64,000 nt of DNA from Bradymonas sediminis (GTDB lineage Bacteria > Myxococcota_A > Bradymonadia > Bradymonadales > Bradymonadaceae), in contig NZ_CP030032.1 in the NCBI RefSeq assembly GCF_003258315.1, positions 4,199,501-4,263,500 of the forward strand, read 5' to 3'. Under the pieces are notes generated by a model that ran no database searches, was not told the DNA's origin, and saw only the letters and a list, made by a program, of their open reading frames with translations. Position 1 is the stretch's first letter. The number at the start of each line of letters is the position of its first letter. Positions 12,673 through 27,593 of the stretch are shown here, piece by piece. Position numbers and translations under genes: made by a program.

Positions 12673-14445
12673 ATGCGTGATAAAGCTCCAACATCGCTTC
12701 GGGACACCGAGATGCCTCGGGAAGGCGACGTGATCGATGGCCGCTACCTTGTCGATAAGGTGATCGGTCGCGGCGGGATGAGCTGTATCGTGCGCGCCCG
12801 CCAGCTCACGATGCAGCGCGATGTGGCGATTAAATTATTGCACCCGCATGTGGCCGAAGACGCGGCGACGCTGACGCGTTTTGAGCGCGAAGTGCACCTG
12901 GCCAAGAGCCTGGCCCACCCCAATATCATCCAATATTACGACTACGGCACGCTCGATAATGGCAGCATGTACCTGGTCATGGAGCTGCTCAACGGGTGCG
13001 ATTTACACGCGTTGATCCAGCAGGAAGGCACCCTCGGGCTGCACCGCGCGATCGACATCACGATTCAAATCCTCGACGGGCTCACCGAGGCCCACGCGAA
13101 GTCGGTGATCCACCGCGATCTCAAGCCGCGCAATATCTTTATGCTCGAGCTGAACCGGCGCGGCGATTATGTCAAAATCCTGGACTTTGGCATCGCCAAG
13201 TCCATGCGCGCCGGGGAGTCGGAGCTGACCAAGACGGGCGTGGTGTGCGGGACGCCGTCTTATCTGGCGCCCGAGCTCCTGATCACCCAGCAGGTCAGCC
13301 CGGGGTCGGACCTCTATTCGGTGGGGCTGGTCTTTTTGGAGATGCTCACCGGGCGCCGAGCGTTTAAGGCCGACACGATGGCGCGCACCTTTTTTATGCA
13401 GCTGCGCCACCCGGTGCCGATCCCGGCGGGGTATCGAGGCACGCCGCTTGAGAAATTCCTGCTGCATGCCCTGGCCAAACACCCCGACGACCGCTTCTTG
13501 AGCGCCCAGGAGATGATCGACGAGCTCGAGGTCTTGCGGCTGCAATTCCCCACCGATATTCGCCTGGATCCCGGCTCCATCGACAGCCTGGTGGACTCGG
13601 CGGCGTCGAAGGCCCCGGGGATGTCGGCGATTGATAATATGGGGCTTGAGATCCTGCGCGACCCCGCCTGGGCCATCACCCCCACGCCGATGCCCGTGCA
13701 CCTTGACCCGCCGGTCGGCGACGACGAGCCGACGACGCTGGCGGAGTGGAGCTCCCAAACCAAGCCGTCGCGCGCCGCGCTCGCCCAGTCCGCGGCGCAC
13801 GGCGACTCCAGCGCCGACCCGCAGGGATTCTCGGCGCCTCAGTCGCCGGCGCTTATCCCCGCCAAGCCGAGGCGCACCGCCCAACCTCTTCGCACCGAAG
13901 AGATGGCCCGCGTGGACCGGGCGGATGTCGAGGATGACACCCCGCGCTCGCGCGCCCTATTGTTCGGCGCCTTAGCCCTCGGCCTGGCCGCCGCCCTGGG
14001 CCTCACTCTCAGCGCAAATTTCATAAATAATTCAACCACATCTGAGGTGAGCACGGCGTCATCTGAGCCTCCATCTCCCGCCACCCCAGCTTCGAGCAAA
14101 CCCGGGCTCGCCCCCAAGCCGGACCCGGACTTCGCCTTTATCAACCGCCTCGACGAGCCGGCCGAACCTGTCATCGAACCCGCGCCTGCGGGGGAAAAGG
14201 ACTCGGATTCGAGCGCGCCCCAGAACGCCAAGCCAGACCCGGCGCCCCCCGAGTCCACGCCGGCGCCACCCACGCCCGCCGACACGGCGACTCCCCAAGC
14301 GCCGAGCGCGCCGGCGCCGGCAAAGGCGCCCAAAAAATCGACAAAGAAGACAGCGCCGAGGACGCGCCCGAGACCCGCGCCCAAGAAGCGCGCGCCGACC
14401 TCGGTCGACGACATCATGAATAATAACACCATTTTTGGAGACTGA
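12673..14445 (+). CDS. Hanks-type Ser/Thr protein kinase with TM and Pro-rich tail
   Basis: A eukaryotic-like protein kinase. Motifs in order: glycine loop GRGGMSCIV (near 31-39), VAIKLL with the ATP-binding Lys (near 53), HRDLKPRN catalytic loop (near 147), DFGIAK (near 172) and a SYLAPE activation-segment end. The RD arginine is present, suggesting activation-loop phosphorylation. After the kinase domain (to about residue 285) comes a linker, a single membrane span near 430-452 (ALGLAAALGLTL) and a Pro/Ala- then Lys/Arg-rich tail, presumably outside the membrane. No PASTA repeats. The start is uncertain: ATG 12673 is used; GTG 12634 or ATG 12712 are possible. The next gene begins 9 bp after the stop, so the two are probably co-transcribed. 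Confidence 0.92.
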   Translation: MRDKAPTSLRDTEMPREGDVIDGRYLVDKVIGRGGMSCIVRARQLTMQRDVAIKLLHPHVAEDAATLTRFEREVHLAKSLAHPNIIQYYDYGTLDNGSMYLVMELLNGCDLHALIQQEGTLGLHRAIDITIQILDGLTEAHAKSVIHRDLKPRNIFMLELNRRGDYVKILDFGIAKSMRAGESELTKTGVVCGTPSYLAPELLITQQVSPGSDLYSVGLVFLEMLTGRRAFKADTMARTFFMQLRHPVPIPAGYRGTPLEKFLLHALAKHPDDRFLSAQEMIDELEVLRLQFPTDIRLDPGSIDSLVDSAASKAPGMSAIDNMGLEILRDPAWAITPTPMPVHLDPPVGDDEPTTLAEWSSQTKPSRAALAQSAAHGDSSADPQGFSAPQSPALIPAKPRRTAQPLRTEEMARVDRADVEDDTPRSRALLFGALALGLAAALGLTLSANFINNSTTSEVSTASSEPPSPATPASSKPGLAPKPDPDFAFINRLDEPAEPVIEPAPAGEKDSDSSAPQNAKPDPAPPESTPAPPTPADTATPQAPSAPAPAKAPKKSTKKTAPRTRPRPAPKKRAPTSVDDIMNNNTIFGD

Positions 14446-15532: not shown

Positions 15533-17056
15533 ATGACTCCTCAGAACCCACATATCCGCAGCAACCGACGCGGCGACTGGCGCCACGCGATCGCCATCGC
15601 CGCGATCGGGTGGGCGATCCTGGGCGCGAGCGGATGCCAGCCCGAGGCGTCGAATTGCAGCGCGGACACGGATTGCGAGGCGGGTTGGGAATGCGCGTCC
15701 GGCGGCGGACTCCTGGTGCGCGGCGGCGTGTGTGTGCTGCGCGACGAGGTCGCGCGCCCCGACGCCGGCCCGGGCGACGACGCGATGGACGCCGAAGATA
15801 TACAGACAGACGGCGGCGATGCCGGGGAGTGCATACCCCAGACCTGCGCAGACCTCGGGGCGACCTGCGGAGTGGTCGACGATGGATGCGGCGACGCGCT
15901 TTCGTGCGGCGGCGCCGAGTGCGTCGCGTCGTTGAGCGCGGGCGCGCAGCATAGCTGTGCGGTGCGCGGCGATGGCAGCATTTTTTGCTGGGGCGCCAAT
16001 CAGGGCGGGCAATTGGGCAGCGGTGATTTCGAGGACCAGCTCACCCCCACGCGTGTGCTGATGTCGAGCGTGGACTTCAAGGCCACCGCGGTCAGCACCG
16101 GCCAGCAGCACTCCTGCGCGCTCAACGAAAAAGGCCTTGCCTGGTGCTGGGGCTCCAACCAACTTGTCGGCTCCGGAGAATGCTTCGGCCAACTCGGCAC
16201 CGGCGATGATTGCGCGACGCTGCCGCGCACCAACCGTCCCGCCATCGCGGTCGACCGCGAGCAGGTAGACCCCAGGGTCGTCTCATTGCAGACCCGCGAG
16301 AACCTAAATTGCATGCGCAACCACGCCGGCCAGGCGTATTGCTGGGGAAGCGGCGCCCACGGCCAGGTCGGAAATGGCGACAGCCTCGCGGCCAACATCG
16401 CGCCGGCGAAGGTGCAGGGCTATGCGGGAGAATTTCTCGCGCTCGGGCTCTCCGAATGCTACGCGTGCGGGCTCAGCGCAGACGGGCTGGTCTGCTGGGG
16501 CGACTTCGCCGACGGATGCAGCGGCTCCGGCGAGCAAAACCAGGCCGTGGTGCACTTCGACGCGTTTCAGTTTGAGACCAGCGCCTGCGTCGCGCCGCAC
16601 GGCTGCATCGCCGGCGGCCGGGCCCACACCTGCTTTATCGACGCGCTCGGAAAGCTCTATTGCTTCAATGACAACGCATCTGGCCAGTTGGGCGTCGACC
16701 CCGCGACGCCGCAGAGCCCGACCCCGGTCGAGGTTAGCGGGTTGCCTGGCTTCGTGATTCAGGTGGTCGCGGGGGACCAATTTAGCTGCGCCCTGCAGAG
16801 CAATGGGGATGTCTATTGCTGGGGCGCCAATGGGTCCGGCCAGCTCGGCGACGCCAGCCAGACCGCCTCCTATACGCCGGTCAAGGTCGGGCTGAGCGCG
16901 CCCGCCGCGCGCATCAGCGCGGGCGATTCACACGCGTGTGCCGCGCTGGAGTCGGGGGAGATTCAATGCTGGGGCGACAATGGGAAGGGGCAATTGGGCA
17001 ATGGAACCTCGGGCAGCGGCGCACTCGCCGCATCGCCGGTCACGGTGCAATTTTGA
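15533..17056 (+). CDS. RCC1-repeat lipoprotein
   Basis: A predicted secreted, lipid-anchored beta-propeller. The signal peptide ends in GASGC. A Cys-rich linker (CSADTDCEAGWECASG, then CGVVDDGCGDALSCGG) leads to about six or seven RCC1-type blades, each with HSCA(V/L)...G...CWG.N..GQLG (for example near residues 140, 180, 265, 420 and 465). Each blade carries a pair of cysteines, typical of extracellular bacterial RCC1 proteins. I use ATG 15533 (507 residues); a TTG at 15482 overlapping the previous stop would add 17 residues. It follows the kinase and TPR/PEGA genes on the same strand and may belong to the same transcription unit. Function is unknown; propellers of this type bind proteins. 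Confidence 0.88.
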   Translation: MTPQNPHIRSNRRGDWRHAIAIAAIGWAILGASGCQPEASNCSADTDCEAGWECASGGGLLVRGGVCVLRDEVARPDAGPGDDAMDAEDIQTDGGDAGECIPQTCADLGATCGVVDDGCGDALSCGGAECVASLSAGAQHSCAVRGDGSIFCWGANQGGQLGSGDFEDQLTPTRVLMSSVDFKATAVSTGQQHSCALNEKGLAWCWGSNQLVGSGECFGQLGTGDDCATLPRTNRPAIAVDREQVDPRVVSLQTRENLNCMRNHAGQAYCWGSGAHGQVGNGDSLAANIAPAKVQGYAGEFLALGLSECYACGLSADGLVCWGDFADGCSGSGEQNQAVVHFDAFQFETSACVAPHGCIAGGRAHTCFIDALGKLYCFNDNASGQLGVDPATPQSPTPVEVSGLPGFVIQVVAGDQFSCALQSNGDVYCWGANGSGQLGDASQTASYTPVKVGLSAPAARISAGDSHACAALESGEIQCWGDNGKGQLGNGTSGSGALAASPVTVQF

Positions 17057-17435: not shown

Positions 17436-18470
17436 ATGCGCGAACTCCCCACAGCCGACTCGAAACGCGACCGTCTAGCGACGCGACCACGGGGAGTTTT
17501 GCCGGCTTTGGTAGTCGCCGGATTCCACGGCCTGGTGGTGTTGATCATGGGGGCGGCGACTGCGGCCCTCTTCAGCACGAGCATCACGGTCGACGCGCTT
17601 CGCTGGGCGTGGCAGCAGCAAGAAGGGCTGGCATCGATCGGGCTGGGAATCGCCGGCCACCTGGGCCTCTGCGCGTTGGTCTGGGCGACGCTATTCTTGA
17701 GCGCCACGCGCATGAGACAACTTTGGCGAGCCAACGCCGAACCCGTTAGATTGACGCCCAAACCGATCGGCAGCGTGCTCACCGAAACCCTGGTCGTATT
17801 GCCGGTGGCGCTGGTCCTCATCATGGGGATCGCGCAATTGGCCCTGGTCAATATCACCGGGACGCTGGCCGATTTGGCGGTGATTCAATCCGCGCGCAGC
17901 GCCTGGGTCTGGATGCCCGAGGCGACCGAAGGCCGCTTCAACGTCGACCGCAGCCTGGTCGCCGAGAAAGCGCGCGTTCAGGCCGCGGCGGTCCTGGCCC
18001 CCACCGCATCCTCCGAATTCGGCAACTTCCGCCTGGGCGCTCACCCGGACTATACCAAGACCTTTCAAAAGACGATGGGCGCCATCTTTGGCACCCAGAT
18101 CGAGGGCGGCGGCGGCAGCAATGTGGGCGCCTATGCCAGGGCGCGCGCCGAGCAAAAGCTGACCCCCGGGCTCAACACAACCCCCTCGGAATTCAGCTTC
18201 TTCCTGGCCTTCGACGCCTCGAAATTCGAAGATCGAACCGCACGTAAATTCTATAATGCATGGGCTCATACCGAGGTCGAATTAGCCGAAACCGGCGATC
18301 GAATCGGCGTAACAATGACCCATCACTATTTCGTCCTCATGCCACTGGTTGCTGGAATTTTCGGCGAGCATAAGCAAATAAATGGCAAACACGGCTATTT
18401 TTTGACGCTCGAACGAAAATACACGCTGCGCAAACAGGTGAAAGTCAATGCGAAGCTGCCGCTGCGCTAA
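17436..18470 (+). CDS. TadE-like pseudopilin-type membrane protein
   Basis: A 344-residue protein with two N-terminal hydrophobic segments (near 24-48 and 68-88). Near residue 110 comes a TadE-like motif: GSVLTETLVVLPVALVLIMG followed by amphipathic sequence (LADLAVIQSARSAWVW). TadE-family proteins are minor pseudopilins of Flp/Tad systems; the conserved Glu after the small residues is present (TE). The two extra N-terminal spans are unusual for the family. The ATG has AAGGTG 6 bp upstream. The next gene starts inside its last codons, so translation is coupled. The role is inferred to be in an envelope-spanning appendage or secretion apparatus. Confidence 0.75.
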   Translation: MRELPTADSKRDRLATRPRGVLPALVVAGFHGLVVLIMGAATAALFSTSITVDALRWAWQQQEGLASIGLGIAGHLGLCALVWATLFLSATRMRQLWRANAEPVRLTPKPIGSVLTETLVVLPVALVLIMGIAQLALVNITGTLADLAVIQSARSAWVWMPEATEGRFNVDRSLVAEKARVQAAAVLAPTASSEFGNFRLGAHPDYTKTFQKTMGAIFGTQIEGGGGSNVGAYARARAEQKLTPGLNTTPSEFSFFLAFDASKFEDRTARKFYNAWAHTEVELAETGDRIGVTMTHHYFVLMPLVAGIFGEHKQINGKHGYFLTLERKYTLRKQVKVNAKLPLR

Positions 18471-19863
18471 AAATAGATGGCTCACACGGGGGATGAGTGA
18501 CGGTCTGGCGCGCTTCAATCGCGACGACTCCGGCGCGATCTTGCTGCTGGGCCTGGCGGGCATCCTCATCCTGATGATGCTCGGCTGGGTTTTGTACGAC
18601 ACCGGCCAGGTCAGCCGCGACAAAATGGACGTGCAGACCGCCGCCGACACCGCCGCCTATAGCCAGGCCGCGGTGCGCGCCCGGGCGATGAATAACCTCG
18701 CCTACGCCAATATCGCCAAGCGCTCGGTGGTGGGGATTCACGCCCAATATTACTCCCTCTGGAAGGGCTATGAGAAATGGTACACCGACACCTGCCCGCC
18801 CGACCCCGAAGACGAAGCGGCGGTCACGCTCTGCGAAGAAAACGAGAAGATCTACGAGGCCGAGAAGGACGGGGATTATAAGATCTTTAAGGATAAAAAT
18901 ACCAAGGAGTATTACCTTCAGGATCTCATCGCCATCGACAATTATCAGCGCTACACCCACGCCTTTACCCCGTGGTGGGGTTGGGCCGAGGCGGTGCACC
19001 GCGCGGCCCGAAACGGCGCGACGATGGCCTCATCCTTCCCCTATCCGGCCAGCCAGGGCCCCCCGGGGCGCTATCCGCTGGTCAACGCCATCGGGGACCG
19101 CGTGCTCAACGAGGTCGGCTGGTCGCCGCTGGTTCGCCACACCAACCTGGTCGACACCCTGCCGGTGATGCTGGCAAGCCACGACATCAATTATGATGAC
19201 GGCTATCACTTTATGCTCGAGAACGGCATGGGCCCCGAGCACAGCTTCTATAAGGACGAGCGCAACTTCAATAATGACGCGCACAAAGCCGCCTCCGAGG
19301 GCATGGCGGGCAGCCAAGACGTCCTGGACCACGCCTTTCAGTTCTTTCCGGGCATCATCCGAACCGAATCCAAAGACGCGTTCGGCAAACACGGTGAACC
19401 CTGGACCCTCTTCAACCCGGCCGAGCCGGCGCGCTGGAGCCTGCTGACCTCGAACCTGGTCTTCACCTACCGCCACGAAAAAGAGCTCTTCGGGGATATG
19501 CGCAATAAATACGGCTATATGAAGAAAGACTATAGCCTCGAGGACGAAGAGAAATACCGCTCCAGCGGCTATTGGGGCATGGCGCGCGCGGAGATGTCAT
19601 TTCAGGGCGGCTTCCGCACCCCCGACCTGTGGCACCCGCGCTGGACCGCGCGCATGCGCCCGGTCGCGCTGCCTGGCGAGATGCAGAAGGTCGGCGTCGA
19701 GATGTCGAGCGTCTACCACGATATGCTCCCCTTCCTTGCGTTTAGCGGCATCCTCATCACCGGAAGCTCGTCGATCATCAACGAATCCTTTGATGACCTG
19801 GTCTTCATGGAACGCGCGACCCGCGCCCTCGGCCACTCAACCGTGGAGGGCATCACGAAATGA
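18448..19863 (+). CDS. TadG-like membrane protein
   Basis: The 471-residue protein has an N-terminal pseudopilin-like segment (DDSGAILLLGLAGILILMMLGWVL) preceded by basic residues. A region typical of TadG/TadE-associated proteins follows: DKMDVQTAADTAAYSQAAVRARAMNNLAYANIAK. The large remainder is hydrophilic and rich in aromatic and charged residues, with no von Willebrand A motif that I can see. I chose ATG 18448 because AGGTGA at 18436-18441 is well spaced; this overlaps the previous gene by 23 bp and implies translational coupling. It ends with an ATGA overlap with the next gene. Confidence 0.75.
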   Translation: MRSCRCAKNRWLTRGMSDGLARFNRDDSGAILLLGLAGILILMMLGWVLYDTGQVSRDKMDVQTAADTAAYSQAAVRARAMNNLAYANIAKRSVVGIHAQYYSLWKGYEKWYTDTCPPDPEDEAAVTLCEENEKIYEAEKDGDYKIFKDKNTKEYYLQDLIAIDNYQRYTHAFTPWWGWAEAVHRAARNGATMASSFPYPASQGPPGRYPLVNAIGDRVLNEVGWSPLVRHTNLVDTLPVMLASHDINYDDGYHFMLENGMGPEHSFYKDERNFNNDAHKAASEGMAGSQDVLDHAFQFFPGIIRTESKDAFGKHGEPWTLFNPAEPARWSLLTSNLVFTYRHEKELFGDMRNKYGYMKKDYSLEDEEKYRSSGYWGMARAEMSFQGGFRTPDLWHPRWTARMRPVALPGEMQKVGVEMSSVYHDMLPFLAFSGILITGSSSIINESFDDLVFMERATRALGHSTVEGITK

Positions 19864-20720
19864 AACGACTCCAGTCGCTCAAAACCAAGCTGACCCGCCC
19901 GATGCGCAGATTTCTGGCCGATGAAGGCGGCGCGACGCTGACCGAGTTCATCATCACCTTGCCGATCTTTATCCTGATTTTTGCGGGCATCGCCAACCTG
20001 TCGCGCCTGAACACCGCGGTGGTGCGCACCAGCGGGGTCGCCTACGCCACGATGTGGGATAACGCGCTGGAGGTCCAAAAAGACACCGCGGGCATTCACA
20101 CCTCGGTGGGCCACGCCGGCAGCGCCATCAAGGCGAATATGACCACCTACCGTGACAAACAAGAAGAGGACTACGTCCACCAGGTGGTGCGCCGTGAGAC
20201 CAACGCCCAGGGCTCGGGCCTGGCCTCGAAGGGAACGCTCGGGGAGTCGGAGGCGCGGGTACGATCGACGCATAAGGAGATCAAACTTCGCTGGATCCAC
20301 GCCGACGTGACCTCCAATATCCAGCCCATCGTGGGCGACTCGACCTACGGCAAACGCCTCTTCGACGATGGCTCATCAGCCCCGCGCGTCAGCTTTAACT
20401 CCAGCAACGGCTTCGGCACCGGCACCACCGGGCTCACCGGCTCCAAGCCCCGCCTGGCGCACGCGACCTCCGCGCATTACGGCGAAGAAATGGGCACCGA
20501 CACCCAGACCGTGACGATCGCCGGGCAGCAATTCCATATCTATCAATATTATAACACGCTGGTGTCGCCGCGCTGGCAGCGCGAAGACGCCGCAGGTGTC
20601 GTGGCGCGCGGCGCCCTCAAGGGCATCTCGGCCTACGATAACCTGCTCGGTATCGCCGAGACTCAGCGCCTGACCAAGCAGTCCCAGACGGTCAATAAGA
20701 TAAAGGGAGCGATGGAATGA
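19860..20720 (+). CDS. TadE-like pilus assembly protein
   Basis: A 286-residue protein with the most typical TadE motif in the cluster: DEGGATLTEFIITLPIFILI near residues 21-40 followed by FAGIANLSRLNTAVVRTSGVAYATM. The Gly-Ala and the Glu five residues later match the class III prepilin-like processing region of the family. The rest is a hydrophilic, probably periplasmic domain with no recognised fold. It overlaps both neighbours by 4 bp (ATGA), so the four genes 17436-21721 form one tightly coupled unit. Confidence 0.8.
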   Translation: MKRLQSLKTKLTRPMRRFLADEGGATLTEFIITLPIFILIFAGIANLSRLNTAVVRTSGVAYATMWDNALEVQKDTAGIHTSVGHAGSAIKANMTTYRDKQEEDYVHQVVRRETNAQGSGLASKGTLGESEARVRSTHKEIKLRWIHADVTSNIQPIVGDSTYGKRLFDDGSSAPRVSFNSSNGFGTGTTGLTGSKPRLAHATSAHYGEEMGTDTQTVTIAGQQFHIYQYYNTLVSPRWQREDAAGVVARGALKGISAYDNLLGIAETQRLTKQSQTVNKIKGAME

Positions 20721-21721
20721 CACAGCAACGCAGCGCCCCAAAAACGTCGCGCGCGCGCCGACTCCTCTCGCTCACCGCCCTGCTCTTCGCCGGCGCCGGC
20801 CTGGTGGTCGTCGGGCTGAGCGCAACCGTCTGGGCCCCCGGCGACGGCGTGTCGGTCTCCCAGGCCAATATCCTCGACCTCTTTAGCGCCGACGCTAACC
20901 CCCAGGCCGGGTTCCAGCGCGCCCTCAAACACCTGGGCCACGAACCCCCCCGCGCCTTCGATATCAACGGCAATACGATCTATTTCTCGGTCAACCATAT
21001 CGATAAAAAACCGATCGAGGTGCTCAAGCGCTACCAGGACGAATTCCATCACCAGAAGCTCAACTCCAAGAGCTATATTACCCTGGCCGACGCCGACACC
21101 CAGCAGGCCCGCCAGGATATGTTGACCGGCGGCATCATCCCCTCGCGCATCAGCGAGCAATATGTCGCCATGGGCGGCGGCCTGACCGGCAATCACGCCC
21201 GCACCCGCGAGGAACTCGCCGGGCTCGAAGCGCAATACCAGCGCGGCGATATCGCCAATAAGTTTAGCGCCTATCGCCACGTCGAGGCGTTCCAGAACCC
21301 CGGCGCCCGCTACACCACCGTAGTCGCGAGCTGGAGCGACGAGAAATTCGACTACCGCAAGATGCTCGCCGGCAGTCAGGTCCCGGGGCAAAACGTCGAC
21401 CCGCGCATTCCGATCTGCCCGGGTTGCACCCGCTTGCAGCGATTTACCGACCTTGATCCCGAGGCCAACCATAGCGACCATATCTTTATCGGCACCTCCA
21501 GCGTGGACAAGATCCTCAGCTTTTACGAGCGCTCCTTGAGCGCGCGCGGATGGCAATTGGAGCCGGTCGCCGAGCTCCTACAGGACGCACATCGCGACGA
21601 CCCCGCACTTTCCAACGCGCAAATGCTGCTCTATCGGCGCGAAGACGGCGCCCTGCGGCTCACGGTTTATCCCAACGGTCCACATAAGATCATCGCACAT
21701 TTAACCCTGTCTGATGGCTGA
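20717..21721 (+). CDS. TM-anchored protein of unknown function in the Tad-like operon
   Basis: Not recognised. The 334 residues have an N-terminal signal-anchor (LLSLTALLFAGAGLVVVGLS, near 16-35) and then an apparently duplicated layout. The first half has a block around NTIYFSVNHIDKKPIEVLKRYQ; the second half has a similar block around HIFIGTSSVDKILSFYERSL followed by ARGWQLEP. Both blocks read as beta-strand, turn, helix, suggesting two related alpha/beta domains. A CPGC motif near residue 235 could bind metal or form a disulfide. It is translationally coupled to the TadE-like gene upstream (ATGA) and is 33 bp from the peptidoglycan hydrolase gene, so it is probably part of the same envelope machine. 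Confidence 0.7.
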   Translation: MTQQRSAPKTSRARRLLSLTALLFAGAGLVVVGLSATVWAPGDGVSVSQANILDLFSADANPQAGFQRALKHLGHEPPRAFDINGNTIYFSVNHIDKKPIEVLKRYQDEFHHQKLNSKSYITLADADTQQARQDMLTGGIIPSRISEQYVAMGGGLTGNHARTREELAGLEAQYQRGDIANKFSAYRHVEAFQNPGARYTTVVASWSDEKFDYRKMLAGSQVPGQNVDPRIPICPGCTRLQRFTDLDPEANHSDHIFIGTSSVDKILSFYERSLSARGWQLEPVAELLQDAHRDDPALSNAQMLLYRREDGALRLTVYPNGPHKIIAHLTLSDG

Positions 21722-21754: not shown

Positions 21755-24700
21755 ATGAATAGCGCGCGAACACATCGCTTAGCCCGCCTCTTACTCGGGG
21801 CCGCCTGCCTGCTCGCCCTCGCCGGCTGCGGAATGACCGACGACGAACCCGCCGCGGTCATCCCGCAGACCTCGGATATCTATGTGACCCAGGGTCAGGA
21901 GGTAAAAACCAAGGACATCAGTGGTTTTTGCAAGGTCCAAACCGACCGGGGCGAGAAGGAACTCCAGGAATATCTGGCCAACGTGGTCAGCTGCGAGGCC
22001 GCCTATAGCGCCGATATCGAGGCGCTTAAGGCCCAGGCCATCGCCGCGCGCTCGTTCGCGATGTATATCAACCACGGCCTGAAGCGCCCGCTGCGCTCAA
22101 GCCAGGCCGACCAGCACTACGCCTGCGGGCGCCCCATCCGCGCCCTCGCCCGCCAGGCCGTCAAAGAGACCGCCGGGGTCGTCGGCCAATATAATGGCAC
22201 GCTGGTGCCGCTCTTCTACAAGGCCGGCTCCGAGCAACAGACCGCATCCTGCCGGGGCATCGGTGGCGGCGCCACCAACACCGAGCATTTTATCACCTAT
22301 AACGAGGGCAAGCGCGGCAGCGCCGTCCAGGGCGCCTATGGCCAGCCCAGCAGCAACGACAACCGCGGCGATATGAGCCAATGGGGCGCGGTTTGCCTGG
22401 AGCGAAAGGGCAAAAAAGCGCTGGATATCCTGCGCTTTTATTACGGCGCCGACATCGAGACCGTCCAACTTCAGGGCTCCTGCATCGCCAATACGGTCGA
22501 CGAAGCCGTGCTAACCGACGGCAGCGGCGCGGGCGCGCAAGAGTGTACCTCGACCACCGAGCGCCCCGATATCATCGAGCGCTCCGGCTGGGGCGCACGC
22601 CCGCCGCGCTCGCTGACCGGCAAGCACACGCCCAACCGCTTCGCCATTCACCACGCCGTGTCGCCCAATAACCTGTCGGTCTCGGGCGCCGAGCGCATCC
22701 GCGGCTTCCAGGACTACCATATGGACGGCCACGGCTGGCCCGATATCGGCTATCACTTCTTGATCGACCGTGACGGTAAAATCTACCGCGGCACCGCCGA
22801 AGACCGCATCGGTGCGCACGTCGGCGGGCAGAATACCGGCAACATCGGCATCAGCTTCCTGGGCCAATACCAGCCTCCCTCGGCGCTGGGAATCCCGGCC
22901 GCCGAGCCGACCGACGAGGCGCTTAAATCCGCCGGGAAGCTCATTCGCTACCTGGCCGACAAATATAATATCGACGTGAAGCGCTCGGTCGTGCAGGGTC
23001 ACCGCGAGAACCCGGGCCAATCCACCTCCTGCCCGGGCGATTTGCTGCTCAATCAGATCCCCAAGATCATCACCTACGCCGGCTCCGACGTCCTCTGCGG
23101 CCGCCCCGAGCGCCCGCATGACGAGGTTCGTGACACCCCGAAATTCAACCTGGAGGCCACGAATTATAAATATATCAAGATCAAGGCCACCGCCGACACC
23201 CCGGCCCCCTACCCGCGCAGCGTCGGCGGGTTCGAGGTCGACTCGGTCTTCTTCCAAACCGACCGCAGCGCCCCGGCCGTCTATGCGTCTTCGGTCGCCA
23301 GCAGCTCCGACGACGTGACCGGCGCCAGCGGGGCGACCGGCCCGCCCAATAACGATAGCTGCGGCTCGCGCACCAGCAACGCCGCGGTGCTCGGCGTCGG
23401 CGAAGAGATCGTCCTAGGCTTCCCAAGCACCTTCAAAAGCGGCGCGGTGATCTCGGTCGTCCAGAACGAATTCAGCAGCATGGCCGGGTGCAACTCCGGC
23501 TATAGCGCCGAGGTCTGGGCCTCGCCCGACAAAGAGAATTGGGTCAAGATCGCCAGCGACATCTCCGGCAATATCTCCGGCCTGAGCGCCCCCGCGTCCA
23601 GCGTCCACTTCCAGACACCGCGCGACGGCGCGAGCTACGCCAGCGGCAACCTCAACCTCACCGTGGACGCCTCACCCGACGTCCAACACGTCGAGTATTT
23701 CATCGGCGGCCGCTCCATTGGCACCGGCACCGACTGGGATAGCTCCTTCCGCCTGGCCCACCTGCTTGAGGGCGAAGGCACCTATAAAATCACCGCCCGC
23801 GCGGTCGGCAGCGACGGACAGACCGTGGCCACCGACACCGTCACCATCACGCTGAGCGACGCGTTCCGCTTCTCCAGCCCGCGCCCCGGCCCGGCCGGCA
23901 TGTCGGCCCTGGCCCCCAAGGACGCCACCTTCAAGGTGATCGGCGGGCCCTCCGAGATCGTCACCGTCATCTACGAGTCCGACGGCTATAACGTCGGCGA
24001 GTCCTCGCAGCGCTCAAGTGACTTCCGGGTCGCCTACTCCTTTGACAACCTCAGCGGCACCGACGGCTTCCGGCGCATCATCGCCTACGCCAAGAACGCA
24101 GCCGGTGAGATCATCGCGACCGCCGAACTCGACGTGTTGGTCTCCGCCCACATTCAGGACGGCCTGGAGTGGGTCCGACCGGCCTCTCGCGGCTGGTATA
24201 GCCCCAAGATCCGCATGCGCACGCGCCGCCTCAACCCCGAGATTATCTCGGTCGACTACGAGGTCGAGGACAAAGCGGTCTGCCGCTCCGACAACCCTGA
24301 CACTAACTTCGCCTGCACCCATAAATTCAGCCAACGCGGCTGGGTCGAGATCACGGCGGTCGGCTACGACACCAAAGAGCAACTGAGCGACCCGGCCGAG
24401 CGCGAAGCGCACACCATCGCCAAGGTCAAAATCAAGGTCTTCATCACCAACGAGGACGGCACGGTCCCCGGCTATGAGCTCGGCGATGACGATGAACCCC
24501 TGCCCGGCTCGGGCAGTGACGGCGGCGGCAGCGCGCCGGGCGGCGGCGGCGAAGCCGACTCCGCTATGGCCGAGAAGCTCGCGGTCCAGGGCGGCCAATG
24601 CTCCGGCGTGGGCAACGGCGGCATGGCCGCTCGCTGCAGCAACGGCCGAGGCGGCTATTCCACCGGACAATGCTGGGGCTTTGTAAAAGCCGCGGTCATT

Positions 24701-25036
24701 CGCTCCGGCCTGGCAACCCGCGCCGACATCGACCGCCTCGCCGCCAAGGTCGGCATGAGCGCCTATCAGGTCCAGGTCAGCGCCTCCGGCTTCACCCACG
24801 CCGCCGACCGCGCCAGCCCCGAGGCCCTGGCCTCGACTATGGGCCTTAAAAAGATCGACGTCCCGCCGTCCCAGGCCCCCCGCGGCGCCATCATCGGTTG
24901 GTTCGCCGGCTGCCGCGGCTACCACGCCACCTATGGCCATATCGAGGTCGCCATGGGCGACGGGTATGCCTGCTCGGACTTCTGCGGCCCCGTGGGCAAC
25001 GCGAGCTGCGGACGTGTCTTCGTGCCGATCAAATAG
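21755..25036 (+). CDS. Lipoprotein with SpoIID, PGRP/amidase and CHAP-like domains
   Basis: A 1093-residue predicted peptidoglycan-remodelling lipoprotein. Lipobox LAGC (residues 22-25). Domain 1 (about 55-240) is SpoIID/LytB-like: LQEYLANVVSCEAAYS with the candidate catalytic Glu, EALKAQAIAARSFAMY, and MSQWGA; family members are lytic transglycosylases acting on denuded glycans. Domain 2 (about 268-440) is PGRP/amidase_2: SGWGARPPR, AIHHAV (zinc His near 298), DIGYHFLIDRDGKIY, and GHREN...TSCPG (zinc His near 414 and Cys near 423). Beta-rich Ig-like repeats follow (about 450-930). Domain 3 (about 950-1093) is CHAP/NlpC-like, with GQCWGFVKAA (candidate Cys near 971) and YGHIEVAMGDGYACSD (candidate His near 1062). 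Three potentially catalytic domains in one chain is unusual. It sits 33 bp after the Tad-like genes. Confidence 0.88.
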   Translation: MNSARTHRLARLLLGAACLLALAGCGMTDDEPAAVIPQTSDIYVTQGQEVKTKDISGFCKVQTDRGEKELQEYLANVVSCEAAYSADIEALKAQAIAARSFAMYINHGLKRPLRSSQADQHYACGRPIRALARQAVKETAGVVGQYNGTLVPLFYKAGSEQQTASCRGIGGGATNTEHFITYNEGKRGSAVQGAYGQPSSNDNRGDMSQWGAVCLERKGKKALDILRFYYGADIETVQLQGSCIANTVDEAVLTDGSGAGAQECTSTTERPDIIERSGWGARPPRSLTGKHTPNRFAIHHAVSPNNLSVSGAERIRGFQDYHMDGHGWPDIGYHFLIDRDGKIYRGTAEDRIGAHVGGQNTGNIGISFLGQYQPPSALGIPAAEPTDEALKSAGKLIRYLADKYNIDVKRSVVQGHRENPGQSTSCPGDLLLNQIPKIITYAGSDVLCGRPERPHDEVRDTPKFNLEATNYKYIKIKATADTPAPYPRSVGGFEVDSVFFQTDRSAPAVYASSVASSSDDVTGASGATGPPNNDSCGSRTSNAAVLGVGEEIVLGFPSTFKSGAVISVVQNEFSSMAGCNSGYSAEVWASPDKENWVKIASDISGNISGLSAPASSVHFQTPRDGASYASGNLNLTVDASPDVQHVEYFIGGRSIGTGTDWDSSFRLAHLLEGEGTYKITARAVGSDGQTVATDTVTITLSDAFRFSSPRPGPAGMSALAPKDATFKVIGGPSEIVTVIYESDGYNVGESSQRSSDFRVAYSFDNLSGTDGFRRIIAYAKNAAGEIIATAELDVLVSAHIQDGLEWVRPASRGWYSPKIRMRTRRLNPEIISVDYEVEDKAVCRSDNPDTNFACTHKFSQRGWVEITAVGYDTKEQLSDPAEREAHTIAKVKIKVFITNEDGTVPGYELGDDDEPLPGSGSDGGGSAPGGGGEADSAMAEKLAVQGGQCSGVGNGGMAARCSNGRGGYSTGQCWGFVKAAVIRSGLATRADIDRLAAKVGMSAYQVQVSASGFTHAADRASPEALASTMGLKKIDVPPSQAPRGAIIGWFAGCRGYHATYGHIEVAMGDGYACSDFCGPVGNASCGRVFVPIK

Positions 25037-25116: not shown

Positions 25117-25764
25117 ATGAAAAATATATCCACCGACTTACGCACACTCCTTGCCCCCTCTAAATCAGGCATCTCGATCGCGCTGCTCGCCCTGGCCCTC
25201 GCCGGCTTTGGCTGCGAGGACTCGAAGGTCGTCGGCCAAACCACCGGCAAGAATAATGGCACACAAACTCAACGCGATGTCGGCGGCACCGGCGAGGTTG
25301 ACGACGCCGGCCACGGCCACGACGAAGATGTCACGCTCATCGCCCCCGGCTTCGTCAACGGCTCCTGGCGCGTCGGCGCCGCCGAGGACCAGTCCCTGAT
25401 CGTCAACCTTGACCTCATCCAGGAGGACGGCGCCACCGAAGTCGAGGGCTATTATACCATGAGCATGCTCGCCGAGAACGGCGCCGCCGACAAAGGCGGC
25501 GACATCATGAGCTCCTCCACCTTCGACGGCACCACGCTCACCGTCCAGTGGAACCCGACCCAAAACGAGAACGAAATCTATACCATCGAGGCGACCAAAC
25601 AGGACGAAAATAACTTCACCGGAACCCTGAGCGCCCTGGTCTTTACCGACGTTAATCAAGAGATTCGCATCAGCCGATACCCCGGCTCCCCGAGCACCGA
25701 CGGAGAAGGCGAGGAGACCGCCGGTGATATCGACGCCGGCCAGCAGGGCGGCGCCGGCGGCTGA
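25117..25764 (+). CDS. Small exported protein, probable lipoprotein
   Basis: A 215-residue protein with a signal sequence (IALLALALAGFGC) whose Cys is preceded by an imperfect lipobox, then a low-complexity Asn/Asp/His-rich linker (residues about 40-70). A beta-rich domain of about 110 residues follows (GSWRVGAAEDQSLIVNLDL, then TLTVQWNPTQNENEIYTIEA), with a Gly/Asp/Glu-rich C-terminal tail. I chose ATG 25117 because GAGGA at 25103-25107 is well placed; an extension upstream to 24898 would overlap the previous gene and bury the signal peptide. It is last in the Tad-like cluster and is followed by a strong terminator. Function unknown. Confidence 0.75.
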   Translation: MKNISTDLRTLLAPSKSGISIALLALALAGFGCEDSKVVGQTTGKNNGTQTQRDVGGTGEVDDAGHGHDEDVTLIAPGFVNGSWRVGAAEDQSLIVNLDLIQEDGATEVEGYYTMSMLAENGAADKGGDIMSSSTFDGTTLTVQWNPTQNENEIYTIEATKQDENNFTGTLSALVFTDVNQEIRISRYPGSPSTDGEGEETAGDIDAGQQGGAGG

Positions 25765-25830: not shown

Positions 25831-25895
25831 ATGCTCTAAGCTGAGCGCGCAACTCCGTGATTTCGCTTCACTTCTGCCAGCACGCCGATCCCCAA

Positions 25896-27593
25896 ATGAG
25901 CTCATCCTCCGAACAAAAAATCCTGCGCGTCGGCACCGTCATCGCAGGCAAATACCGCATCGACAAGGCCATCGCACGCGGCGGCTTCAGCGTCATTTAT
26001 CGCGCCACGCATATCGAAATGAAGCGCCCGGTGGGGCTCAAGATCCCCACCATCGCCGAGGATATCAAAGCCTCCTGGCTGGAGCGCTTCACCCGCGAGG
26101 CGCGCCTGGCCAGCCAACTGACTCACCCCAACACCGTCACGATTTACGACTACGGCCAGGACCCCCACGGCTTCCTCTATATCGCCATGGAGTGGGTTGA
26201 GGGCGTCTCCCTCTACCAATACCTCGACAAGCGCGGGGCGCTGCCGCCGCTGGCGGTAGCGCGACTCAGCGTCCAGATCCTGGCCAGCCTGCAAGAGGCC
26301 CATCAACTTCATTTTTTGCACCGCGATCTTAAGCCCTCAAATATCATGCTCACCCGTGATTTTCAGGGCCAGGATATGGTCAAGATCCTGGACTTCGGCA
26401 TCGCCAAAGACCTGAGCGAGAACGCCGAGAGCCTGGCGCGCATCACCCACCAGGGAACCTTCGTGGGCACCCCGCGCTACGCCTCTCCCGAGCAGCTCGA
26501 GCAGACCAAACAGCTCGGCCCCCCGTCGGATATCTACTCGCTGGGCCTGTTGATGTGGGAGGCGATGGTCGGCGACCCGGCGGTCCCCTCCACGATCTAC
26601 GGCGAGTGCGTCGAAAAGCACCTGGGCCCCGAGCCCTGGGTTCTCCCCCCGGCGGTGTCTTGCCCGCCCGGGTTAGAGCGCATCCTCTATAAAGCGCTGG
26701 CAAAGCCCACCGTTGATCGCTACCAAACATGCGCCGAAATGCGCCGGGAGTTGCTCGCCTGGCTCAACACCCCCGAGGCGCGCGCAGAAGATGCCGAAGA
26801 TGTCCCGTTTTCACGACGACGCTCCCCATCACCGCCGCCGCTTCGACAAAAAAATTCGCCGGTCGATCAGCTCTTGCAGGCCGCCAAACAGGCCCGGCCC
26901 AAACCGGCGCCCCGGGCCGAAGAAGATCTCCCTCCCCTGGAGTTGGACCTCGCCCGCATCGCCGACGACGGCAGGAATAATCGCGCCGGCCACCCCGCTC
27001 AAGCCCGCGCGCCCGGGGAGTATCGCCCCGCCGAGCCCCGCGCACCGCGCGCCAACCTCTGGCCGCGGATCGCCGCCGCCAGCGGCGCCGCTTTGCTCAT
27101 CGCCCTGCTCGGCTGGTGGGCTTTCTCGGACGACAACTCAGCCGACGCCCCGGCGCCCCCCGAGCCCAGCCAAGCCAGCGCGCTCGCCGAGCCCCACGAA
27201 AAACCCGCGCCCCCTCGCCCGGCACCCCGCGATCCGGCGGCCGCCAGCGTCTCGCCATCGCTCGTCTGGGCCGCCATCCAGGAGTCGGGGTGGAAGCGCA
27301 TCGGCAAGCTCAGCAGCTTTGACGCCGGCGGCCTCACCCAGGAGAACGGGCGCTTTCGCAAAAGCGGGCATACCGTCGCGGTCACCGTCTTTAGCGCCAA
27401 TGACCACGGTGAGATGCCCGACTATTCCGAGGTCGCCGAGCCCCCCGCCCAGGTGATCGACTTCGGCACTACCTTCGTCCAGGTCGCCCCGGGAACCCCG
27501 TCCACCACCGTCGAGGCCATCGACCACCTGGCCGGGAGCCTGCGAAAGCTCCAGGAGATCATCGAGGAGCAAAGAGAAGACGCCGCCCCCTGA
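25896..27593 (+). CDS. Hanks-type Ser/Thr protein kinase with TM and extracytoplasmic tail
   Basis: A 565-residue eukaryotic-like kinase. Glycine loop ARGGFSVIYRA (near 28-38), VGLKIP with the ATP-binding Lys (near 49; the usual VAIK is VGLK), HRDLKPSN (near 142), DFGIAK (near 167), GTPRYASPEQ. The kinase domain ends near residue 280. A Pro-rich linker leads to a membrane span near 390-410 (IAAASGAALLIALLGWWAF) and an extracytoplasmic part of about 150 residues with no recognised sensor fold (SGWKRIGKLSSFDAGG..., ending in charged residues). ATG 25896 is used; GTG 25857 has no RBS either. It is a separate unit from the Tad-like operon because a terminator precedes it, and it converges with the ferredoxin gene with a 1-bp gap. 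Confidence 0.92.
   Translation: MSSSSEQKILRVGTVIAGKYRIDKAIARGGFSVIYRATHIEMKRPVGLKIPTIAEDIKASWLERFTREARLASQLTHPNTVTIYDYGQDPHGFLYIAMEWVEGVSLYQYLDKRGALPPLAVARLSVQILASLQEAHQLHFLHRDLKPSNIMLTRDFQGQDMVKILDFGIAKDLSENAESLARITHQGTFVGTPRYASPEQLEQTKQLGPPSDIYSLGLLMWEAMVGDPAVPSTIYGECVEKHLGPEPWVLPPAVSCPPGLERILYKALAKPTVDRYQTCAEMRRELLAWLNTPEARAEDAEDVPFSRRRSPSPPPLRQKNSPVDQLLQAAKQARPKPAPRAEEDLPPLELDLARIADDGRNNRAGHPAQARAPGEYRPAEPRAPRANLWPRIAAASGAALLIALLGWWAFSDDNSADAPAPPEPSQASALAEPHEKPAPPRPAPRDPAAASVSPSLVWAAIQESGWKRIGKLSSFDAGGLTQENGRFRKSGHTVAVTVFSANDHGEMPDYSEVAEPPAQVIDFGTTFVQVAPGTPSTTVEAIDHLAGSLRKLQEIIEEQREDAAP

Follow-up and report, generated by a model that had tools for sequence, protein, structure and literature searches.

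Within the 64,000-nucleotide stretch of Bradymonas sediminis DNA analyzed here (the window), the forward-strand ORF 21755..25036 encodes a lipoprotein of 1093 aa, whose identity as a peptidoglycan hydrolase is well supported by HMM and structure matches and by predicted catalytic residues, and which is preceded by an operon of Tad-type minor pilins and followed by the gene of a second lipoprotein. The earlier note on this DNA drew attention to the union of three wall-acting domains in a single lipidated chain; in our opinion, the second lipoprotein and the pilin operon, both of which it missed, matter more than the fusion. Each of the domains is already known, and so is the successive action of an amidase and SpoIID, which comes from separate proteins; the new elements are the family-wide occurrence of the three domains on one lipoprotein chain, the strict partner lipoprotein, and the attachment to a Kil-type tip cluster. 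We tentatively propose, giving it somewhat less than an even chance, that the exported, lipid-anchored multi-domain hydrolase acts with its dedicated partner, is produced, in the window copy, along with tip pilins belonging to a Kil-type Tad system, and is used on prey.

The ORF is intact, free of stops and coding-like in its codon usage, and it opens with a signal peptide and lipobox (LALAGC, 21755..21829) leading to Cys25, in agreement with the single lipidated chain of 1093 residues originally described; Cys25 is aligned in 13 of the 14 hydrolase homologues, and the remaining row is truncated at a contig edge. The profile searches that the note had suggested place SpoIID, Amidase_2 and an Ig-like Big_7 domain above the curated cut-offs, and a C-terminal CHAP match below it. 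The compact SpoIID/LytB domain spans aa 50-245 (21902..22489), the PGRP/Amidase_2 domain aa 270-445 (22562..23089), and the CHAP-like cysteine hydrolase domain aa 929-1093 (24539..25033), all on the forward strand. Between the latter two lie an unassigned, likely beta-rich domain (aa 465-610, 23147..23584, forward strand; homologues 25-34% identical) and the Ig-like spacers (23585..24529, forward strand), correctly anticipated by the note, which include Big_7 at aa 616-681 (Pfam, E 2.2e-6) and vary in copy number among the paralogues. The identity to homologues amounts to 41-47% in SpoIID, 36-57% in the amidase and 45-67% in the C-terminal domain, and to 18-44% in the beta-rich and Ig-like parts, counted only where enough columns align. 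The predicted catalytic residues (E81; H299, Y333, H416, C426; C973, H1062, D1075) are retained in 13 of the 14 full-length homologues, in a count where one row, cut by a contig end, begins only downstream of E81. The copy of genome G009 (L041 / L055) deviates: the second His and the Cys of its amidase are gone, with the SpoIID Glu and the CHAP-like residues intact. Since the enzymatic domains are far better kept than the spacers and preserve these residues, three separate domains are under constraint, and the chain likely has two or three activities, the full set of three being a prediction from sequence. It is very improbable, in our view, that the PGRP, SpoIID and CHAP-like domains instead constitute a wall-binding sensor or adhesin that recognizes prey peptidoglycan for the pilus tip: the loss of amidase Zn ligands in the G009 copy, the half-missing SpoIID signature and the far CHAP-domain relatives devoid of the Cys (both described below) would agree with such a role, but the retention of all predicted catalytic residues in nearly all full-length homologues argues against it.

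The SpoIID domain is recognized by Pfam (PF08486) at aa 69-146 with E 6.9e-13 (49.5 bits vs cut-off 23) and by the NCBIfam model SpoIID_LytB (TIGR02669) with E 7.4e-24 (85.1 bits vs cut-off 83.3). Glu81, found in all 13 homologues that cover the position, is aligned to the Glu in SpoIID chains of solved structure, which places it at the catalytic position, as the note had supposed; the catalytic Glu of B. subtilis SpoIID is E88 (PMC6635528). The domain comprises ~195 aa vs the canonical ~270-290, with about 100 central residues absent; its match corresponds to positions 7-108 of the 270-position model and a short C-terminal piece. At the site of the canonical GHGVGMSQ it reads NRGDMSQWGA, the GHGVG half being absent, and the hydrolase thus lacks the full-length, ~270-residue form with GHGVGMSQ. 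Given the internal truncation and the loss of half of the signature, this SpoIID may bind rather than cut glycan, and glycan cleavage, as judged from the sequence, is plausible but not secure; the three-activity fusion claimed previously therefore stands insofar as amidase, CHAP-like and SpoIID-like domains do share one chain, but its SpoIID component is a compact one. The same compact form occurs in other Bradymonadia without the amidase. The B. sediminis genome contains five SpoIID ORFs, and the canonical SpoIID encoded elsewhere in it (L086:7017-8687) is of full length and keeps GHGVGMCQ.

With respect to its enzymology, the protein resembles the pairing of SpoIID with the amidase SpoIIP or AmiA, in which the amidase denudes the glycan that SpoIID then cleaves, and the position of Glu81 extends this likeness. 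It differs in that SpoIID and a PGRP-type amidase reside in one lipidated chain, with a CHAP-like domain added, and in that SpoIID is compact and devoid of GHGVG. It thus presents a natural single-chain arrangement of two enzymes known, as separate proteins, to act in succession; our literature search for a SpoIID-Amidase_2 fusion yielded only a paper on a Bacillus hydrolase. SpoIID homologues of non-sporulating bacteria act at division septa, on denuded glycan (PMC6635528), and this precedent favors an explanation by self-wall remodeling, in which the hydrolase opens or trims the peptidoglycan of its own cell for the Tad/Kil basal body or for daughter separation and the partner localizes or regulates it. 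The lipid anchor, suited to action at the envelope of the producer, and the two further copies away from pilin genes point in the same direction. We nonetheless consider this explanation doubtful, if quite possible, because a canonical SpoIID is encoded elsewhere, the number of hydrolase copies per genome ranges from 1 to 3, and the hydrolase is missing from 8 of the 21 genomes of the family, several of which have pilin clusters. The wall remodeling envisaged in the note is therefore one option; the minor-pilin operon, the Kil-type core and the strict partner, taken together, make an attack on the prey wall at least as likely.

The PGRP/Amidase_2 domain is matched by Pfam at aa 292-429 (E 2.9e-20, 73.4 bits vs cut-off 26) and by PGRP structures at aa 247-443 (E down to 1.2e-23). 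The Zn ligands H, H and C, which had been read from the sequence, are H299, H416 and C426, accompanied by Y333, and a Zn-dependent amidase function is predicted from them. These four residues and the strong PGRP match are shared with the bacterial and phage N-acetylmuramoyl-L-alanine amidases of the PGRP/Amidase_2 type; the difference is that here the domain is fused between the SpoIID and Ig-like parts of a lipoprotein.

We regard the C-terminal domain as CHAP-like, albeit remote. Taken alone, its 165 aa give a sub-threshold CHAP match (E 0.05, 14.3-14.5 bits vs cut-off 26); CHAP is matched by 11 of the 14 family members (9 of 11 in an earlier set), with E 4.9e-7 at best, and a CHAP-type lysin heads the list in a profile search of PDB sequences (E 0.006). 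In the AlphaFold model, calculated from 14 sequences (pLDDT 84), Cys973 is predicted to open a helix and His1062 a strand, with Asp1075 between the following strands, which would correspond to the papain-like order; all three residues are invariant in the 14 full-length homologues. The best PDB matches of the model in Foldseek are CHAP and NlpC/P60 enzymes, all of them weak (E at least 0.13), and the best match among viral structures is a long phage membrane protein (E 6.5e-4). The CHAP/NlpC assignment is supported by the order of Cys and His and by the matches of the homologues; the domain's own score lies below the cut-off, and the fold similarity is weak. In comparison with the CHAP endolysins LysK, LysGH15 and LysIME-EF1, the likeness extends to the Cys-His(-Asp) order, the CHAP family of Pfam and a resemblance of fold, whereas the domain discussed here is very remote, carries a Cys-rich C-terminal motif, ACSDxCG, and belongs to a cellular lipoprotein. 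A PHROGs search with the C-terminal domain returned chance-level matches only, and DUF4951, matched by one family member with E 0.18, was disregarded. Two distant CHAP-like relatives are encoded elsewhere: that at L058:6001-6498 has no Cys at the nucleophile position and keeps GHVE and ACSDYCG, and in that at L059:5518-5793 the match begins past the Cys site, with no equivalent Cys upstream.

The full architecture is present in three copies in the B. sediminis genome, i.e. the window ORF and the loci at C1:1313-1317 kb and C1:1572-1575 kb. Homologous C-terminal domains are present in 13 of the 21 genomes of one Bradymonadia family, mostly as part of the full fusion and in a few cases cut at contig ends; among 284 Myxococcota genomes, the full fusion was not found outside that family, and in the genomes outside it the C-terminal domain appears only in shorter or differently built proteins. 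A scan of GTDB contigs detected relatives in Lujinxingia vulgaris, in Lujinxingiaceae and in MAGs labeled 'Myxococcales', as well as a partial one in Plesiocystis pacifica. The architecture is therefore unusual, as had been stated, but it is not unique, being family-wide and present three times in this genome. Two genomes, G006 and G011, show short C-terminal ORFs; these were considered as a separate, standalone gene and rejected, the G006 ORF being cut by the contig end. The genomes of family f1 also encode many more PGRP/Amidase_2 proteins, about 500-1100 aa in length, a number of which end in tails resembling MYXO-CTERM sorting signals; they may represent an expansion linked to predation.

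The gene that adjoins every hydrolase copy, in the window at 25117..25764 on the forward strand, encodes the partner lipoprotein, in which an acidic linker is followed by a predicted 8-strand beta barrel (AlphaFold model, pLDDT 79). The structural matches of the model are weak and generic, of the lipocalin- or FHbp-like type; a known inhibitor fold was sought and discarded, with only generic barrels among the matches listed. Wherever the flanks of a hydrolase locus are intact, a homologue of the partner lies 3' of the hydrolase; this holds for both B. sediminis paralogues and for the copies of G009 and G010 that are unlinked to pilin genes. In a profile search of 237 genomes, the distribution of the partner coincided fully with that of the hydrolase: it was present in the 13 family genomes that have the hydrolase and absent from the other 8 and from all genomes outside the family. 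The probability of such a perfect 13-vs-8 agreement would be near 5e-6 for independent lineages, a condition that does not hold here. The obligate adjacent partner characteristic of an effector-immunity pair is thus found here in all copies examined. One orphan copy of the partner, without the hydrolase, is located at L108:7232-7849 (C1:4913.2-4913.8 kb of the B. sediminis genome), between genes that in G010 lie on either side of the hydrolase locus, and this syntenic placement suggests a loss of the hydrolase at this site, with the lipoprotein retained. Together, the orphan and the strict co-occurrence would fit the role of an inhibitor or immunity protein.

Upstream lie four genes of the same strand, each of which, up to the hydrolase, either overlaps the next or is separated from it by no more than 80 bp. 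The first (17436..18470, start at 17436 or 17508) encodes a TadE-like minor pilin that has a membrane segment at its N-terminus, a weak Pfam TadE match (E 0.009) and a prepilin-like site, GSVLTET; homologues are found at the corresponding position of the three further B. sediminis clusters and in relatives. The second (18493..19863) encodes a large TadG-like minor pilin (Pfam Tad PF13400, E 5.7e-8), and the third (19860..20720), which overlaps the preceding stop, a TadE/TadF-like minor pilin with the prepilin site GATLTEF and a TadE match just below the cut-off (E 2.9e-4, 21.3 bits); two of the three pilins of this TadE/TadG/TadF-type trio score under the TadE cut-off. The fourth gene (20717..21721) encodes a protein with one predicted membrane segment and no Pfam match, and its homologues stand behind the trio in the three remaining clusters of the genome and in G010. 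There are four TadG-type clusters in the genome, each with the same four genes, and only that in the window adjoins the hydrolase; the other three (L077, L078, L079) have no adjoining wall hydrolase.

The Tad core itself is encoded at L080:9346-19241 and consists of RcpC, a secretin, an FHA-CpaF fusion ATPase, two T2SSF proteins, an FHA protein, a TPR protein and a small pilin-like protein. An ATPase fused to FHA is described as peculiar to the Kil system (PMC8460266), and it is found here along with CpaB, the secretin and two platform proteins, as expected of a Kil-type Tad. Kil-like systems have been reported in Bradymonadales, and a Tip-like complex has been proposed in Bradymonas sediminis. 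The Myxococcus Kil system uses four minor-pilin Tips on one pilus (PMC12075869), and the combination of one Tad core possessing an FHA-fused ATPase with four separate TadE/TadG/TadF clusters is similar to that of M. xanthus, with its Tips 1-4. A difference is that the tip1-4 profiles in the literature hardly extend beyond Myxococcales. As to orthology of the window trio with M. xanthus KilL/M/N, the matches obtained in other Myxococcota are weak and confined to the N-terminal part. A further difference is that a wall hydrolase and lipoprotein at a tip cluster are not mentioned in the Kil papers (PMC8460266, PMC12075869); likewise, we found no mention of the three-domain lipoprotein in the Kil or bradymonad literature, supplements aside, or in targeted searches.

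The neighborhood of trio and hydrolase recurs in five genera (g1, g3, g9, g12 and g13) at about 40% protein identity. In four of them (g3, g9, g12, g13) an epimerase-like gene stands between the pilins and the hydrolase, so that co-transcription is supported, by gene spacing alone, for the window arrangement only. The hydrolases of G009 and G010 and the two B. sediminis paralogues show no pilin linkage, and G004, G005 and G007 possess pilin clusters and lack the hydrolase; in the tree, the window copy groups with the unlinked G010 and B. sediminis copies, on a long branch. Most simply, an ancestor linked to a tip cluster would have undergone duplication and losses. The unlinked copies, as well as the wealth of other PGRP-domain proteins in the family, would also be expected of a general secreted wall digester, used for prey debris or competition and having the pilin genes merely as inherited neighbors; we find this unlikely, as the linkage has been retained over five genera at that level of identity and the window genes overlap or almost touch.

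According to the prey-attack scenario that we prefer, the hydrolase would be exported by Sec and lipidated at Cys25, as predicted from its N-terminus. Upon contact with the prey, the pilus tip would bring the enzyme to the prey wall or orient it there, as the operon and the Kil precedent suggest. The amidase would remove stem peptides from the glycan and the CHAP-like domain would cut stems or cross-links, judging by their conserved catalytic residues, and the compact SpoIID would bind, and perhaps cleave, the denuded strands left by the amidase, as SpoIID does after amidases elsewhere. The partner, in keeping with its strict co-occurrence and the one orphan, may restrain the enzyme or shield the wall of the producer. 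Contact killing by the Myxococcus Kil system involves a spreading loss of prey peptidoglycan, put down to hydrolases left unnamed (PMC8460266), the four Kil Tips have been proposed to deliver Tip-specific toxic effectors (PMC12075869), and bradymonad predation is contact-dependent, with prey walls broken (PMC11509652); the likelihood that we assign to a role in prey attack is based on these three precedents. However, an injected effector would not be expected to carry a lipid anchor, the linkage to tips is not universal (one of the four B. sediminis clusters has the hydrolase, and some tip-bearing genomes have none), and SpoIID is atypical. The predatory role is thus inferred, and the more specific proposal, that the hydrolase is the payload of a Kil-type tip that degrades the prey wall and the barrel lipoprotein its immunity protein, the module being carried on a Tad pilus, is rather unlikely. 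If true, it would supply the missing prey-wall-degrading activity of contact-dependent predation, as the Kil papers describe the loss of prey peptidoglycan and propose tip-specific effectors, yet name no hydrolase. With its constant partner and frequent tip-pilus genes, the hydrolase is in any case a testable candidate for a prey-wall-breaking enzyme, and the locus offers a concrete gene, a partner and matched control genomes for the question of prey-wall breakdown.

Promoter and terminator scans of the region gave results near chance, and a PADLOC search for anti-phage defence returned no match. The region is flanked by Ser/Thr protein kinases at 12712-14445 and 25857-27593, which possibly pair with FHA proteins in the Kil core, but neither kinase is conserved beside the hydrolase; for this reason that at 25857-27593, considered as a part of the system, was set aside after comparison with relatives. 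Just upstream of the pilin operon, at 15533-17056, lies the gene of an RCC1-repeat protein with an N-terminal lipoprotein-like segment.
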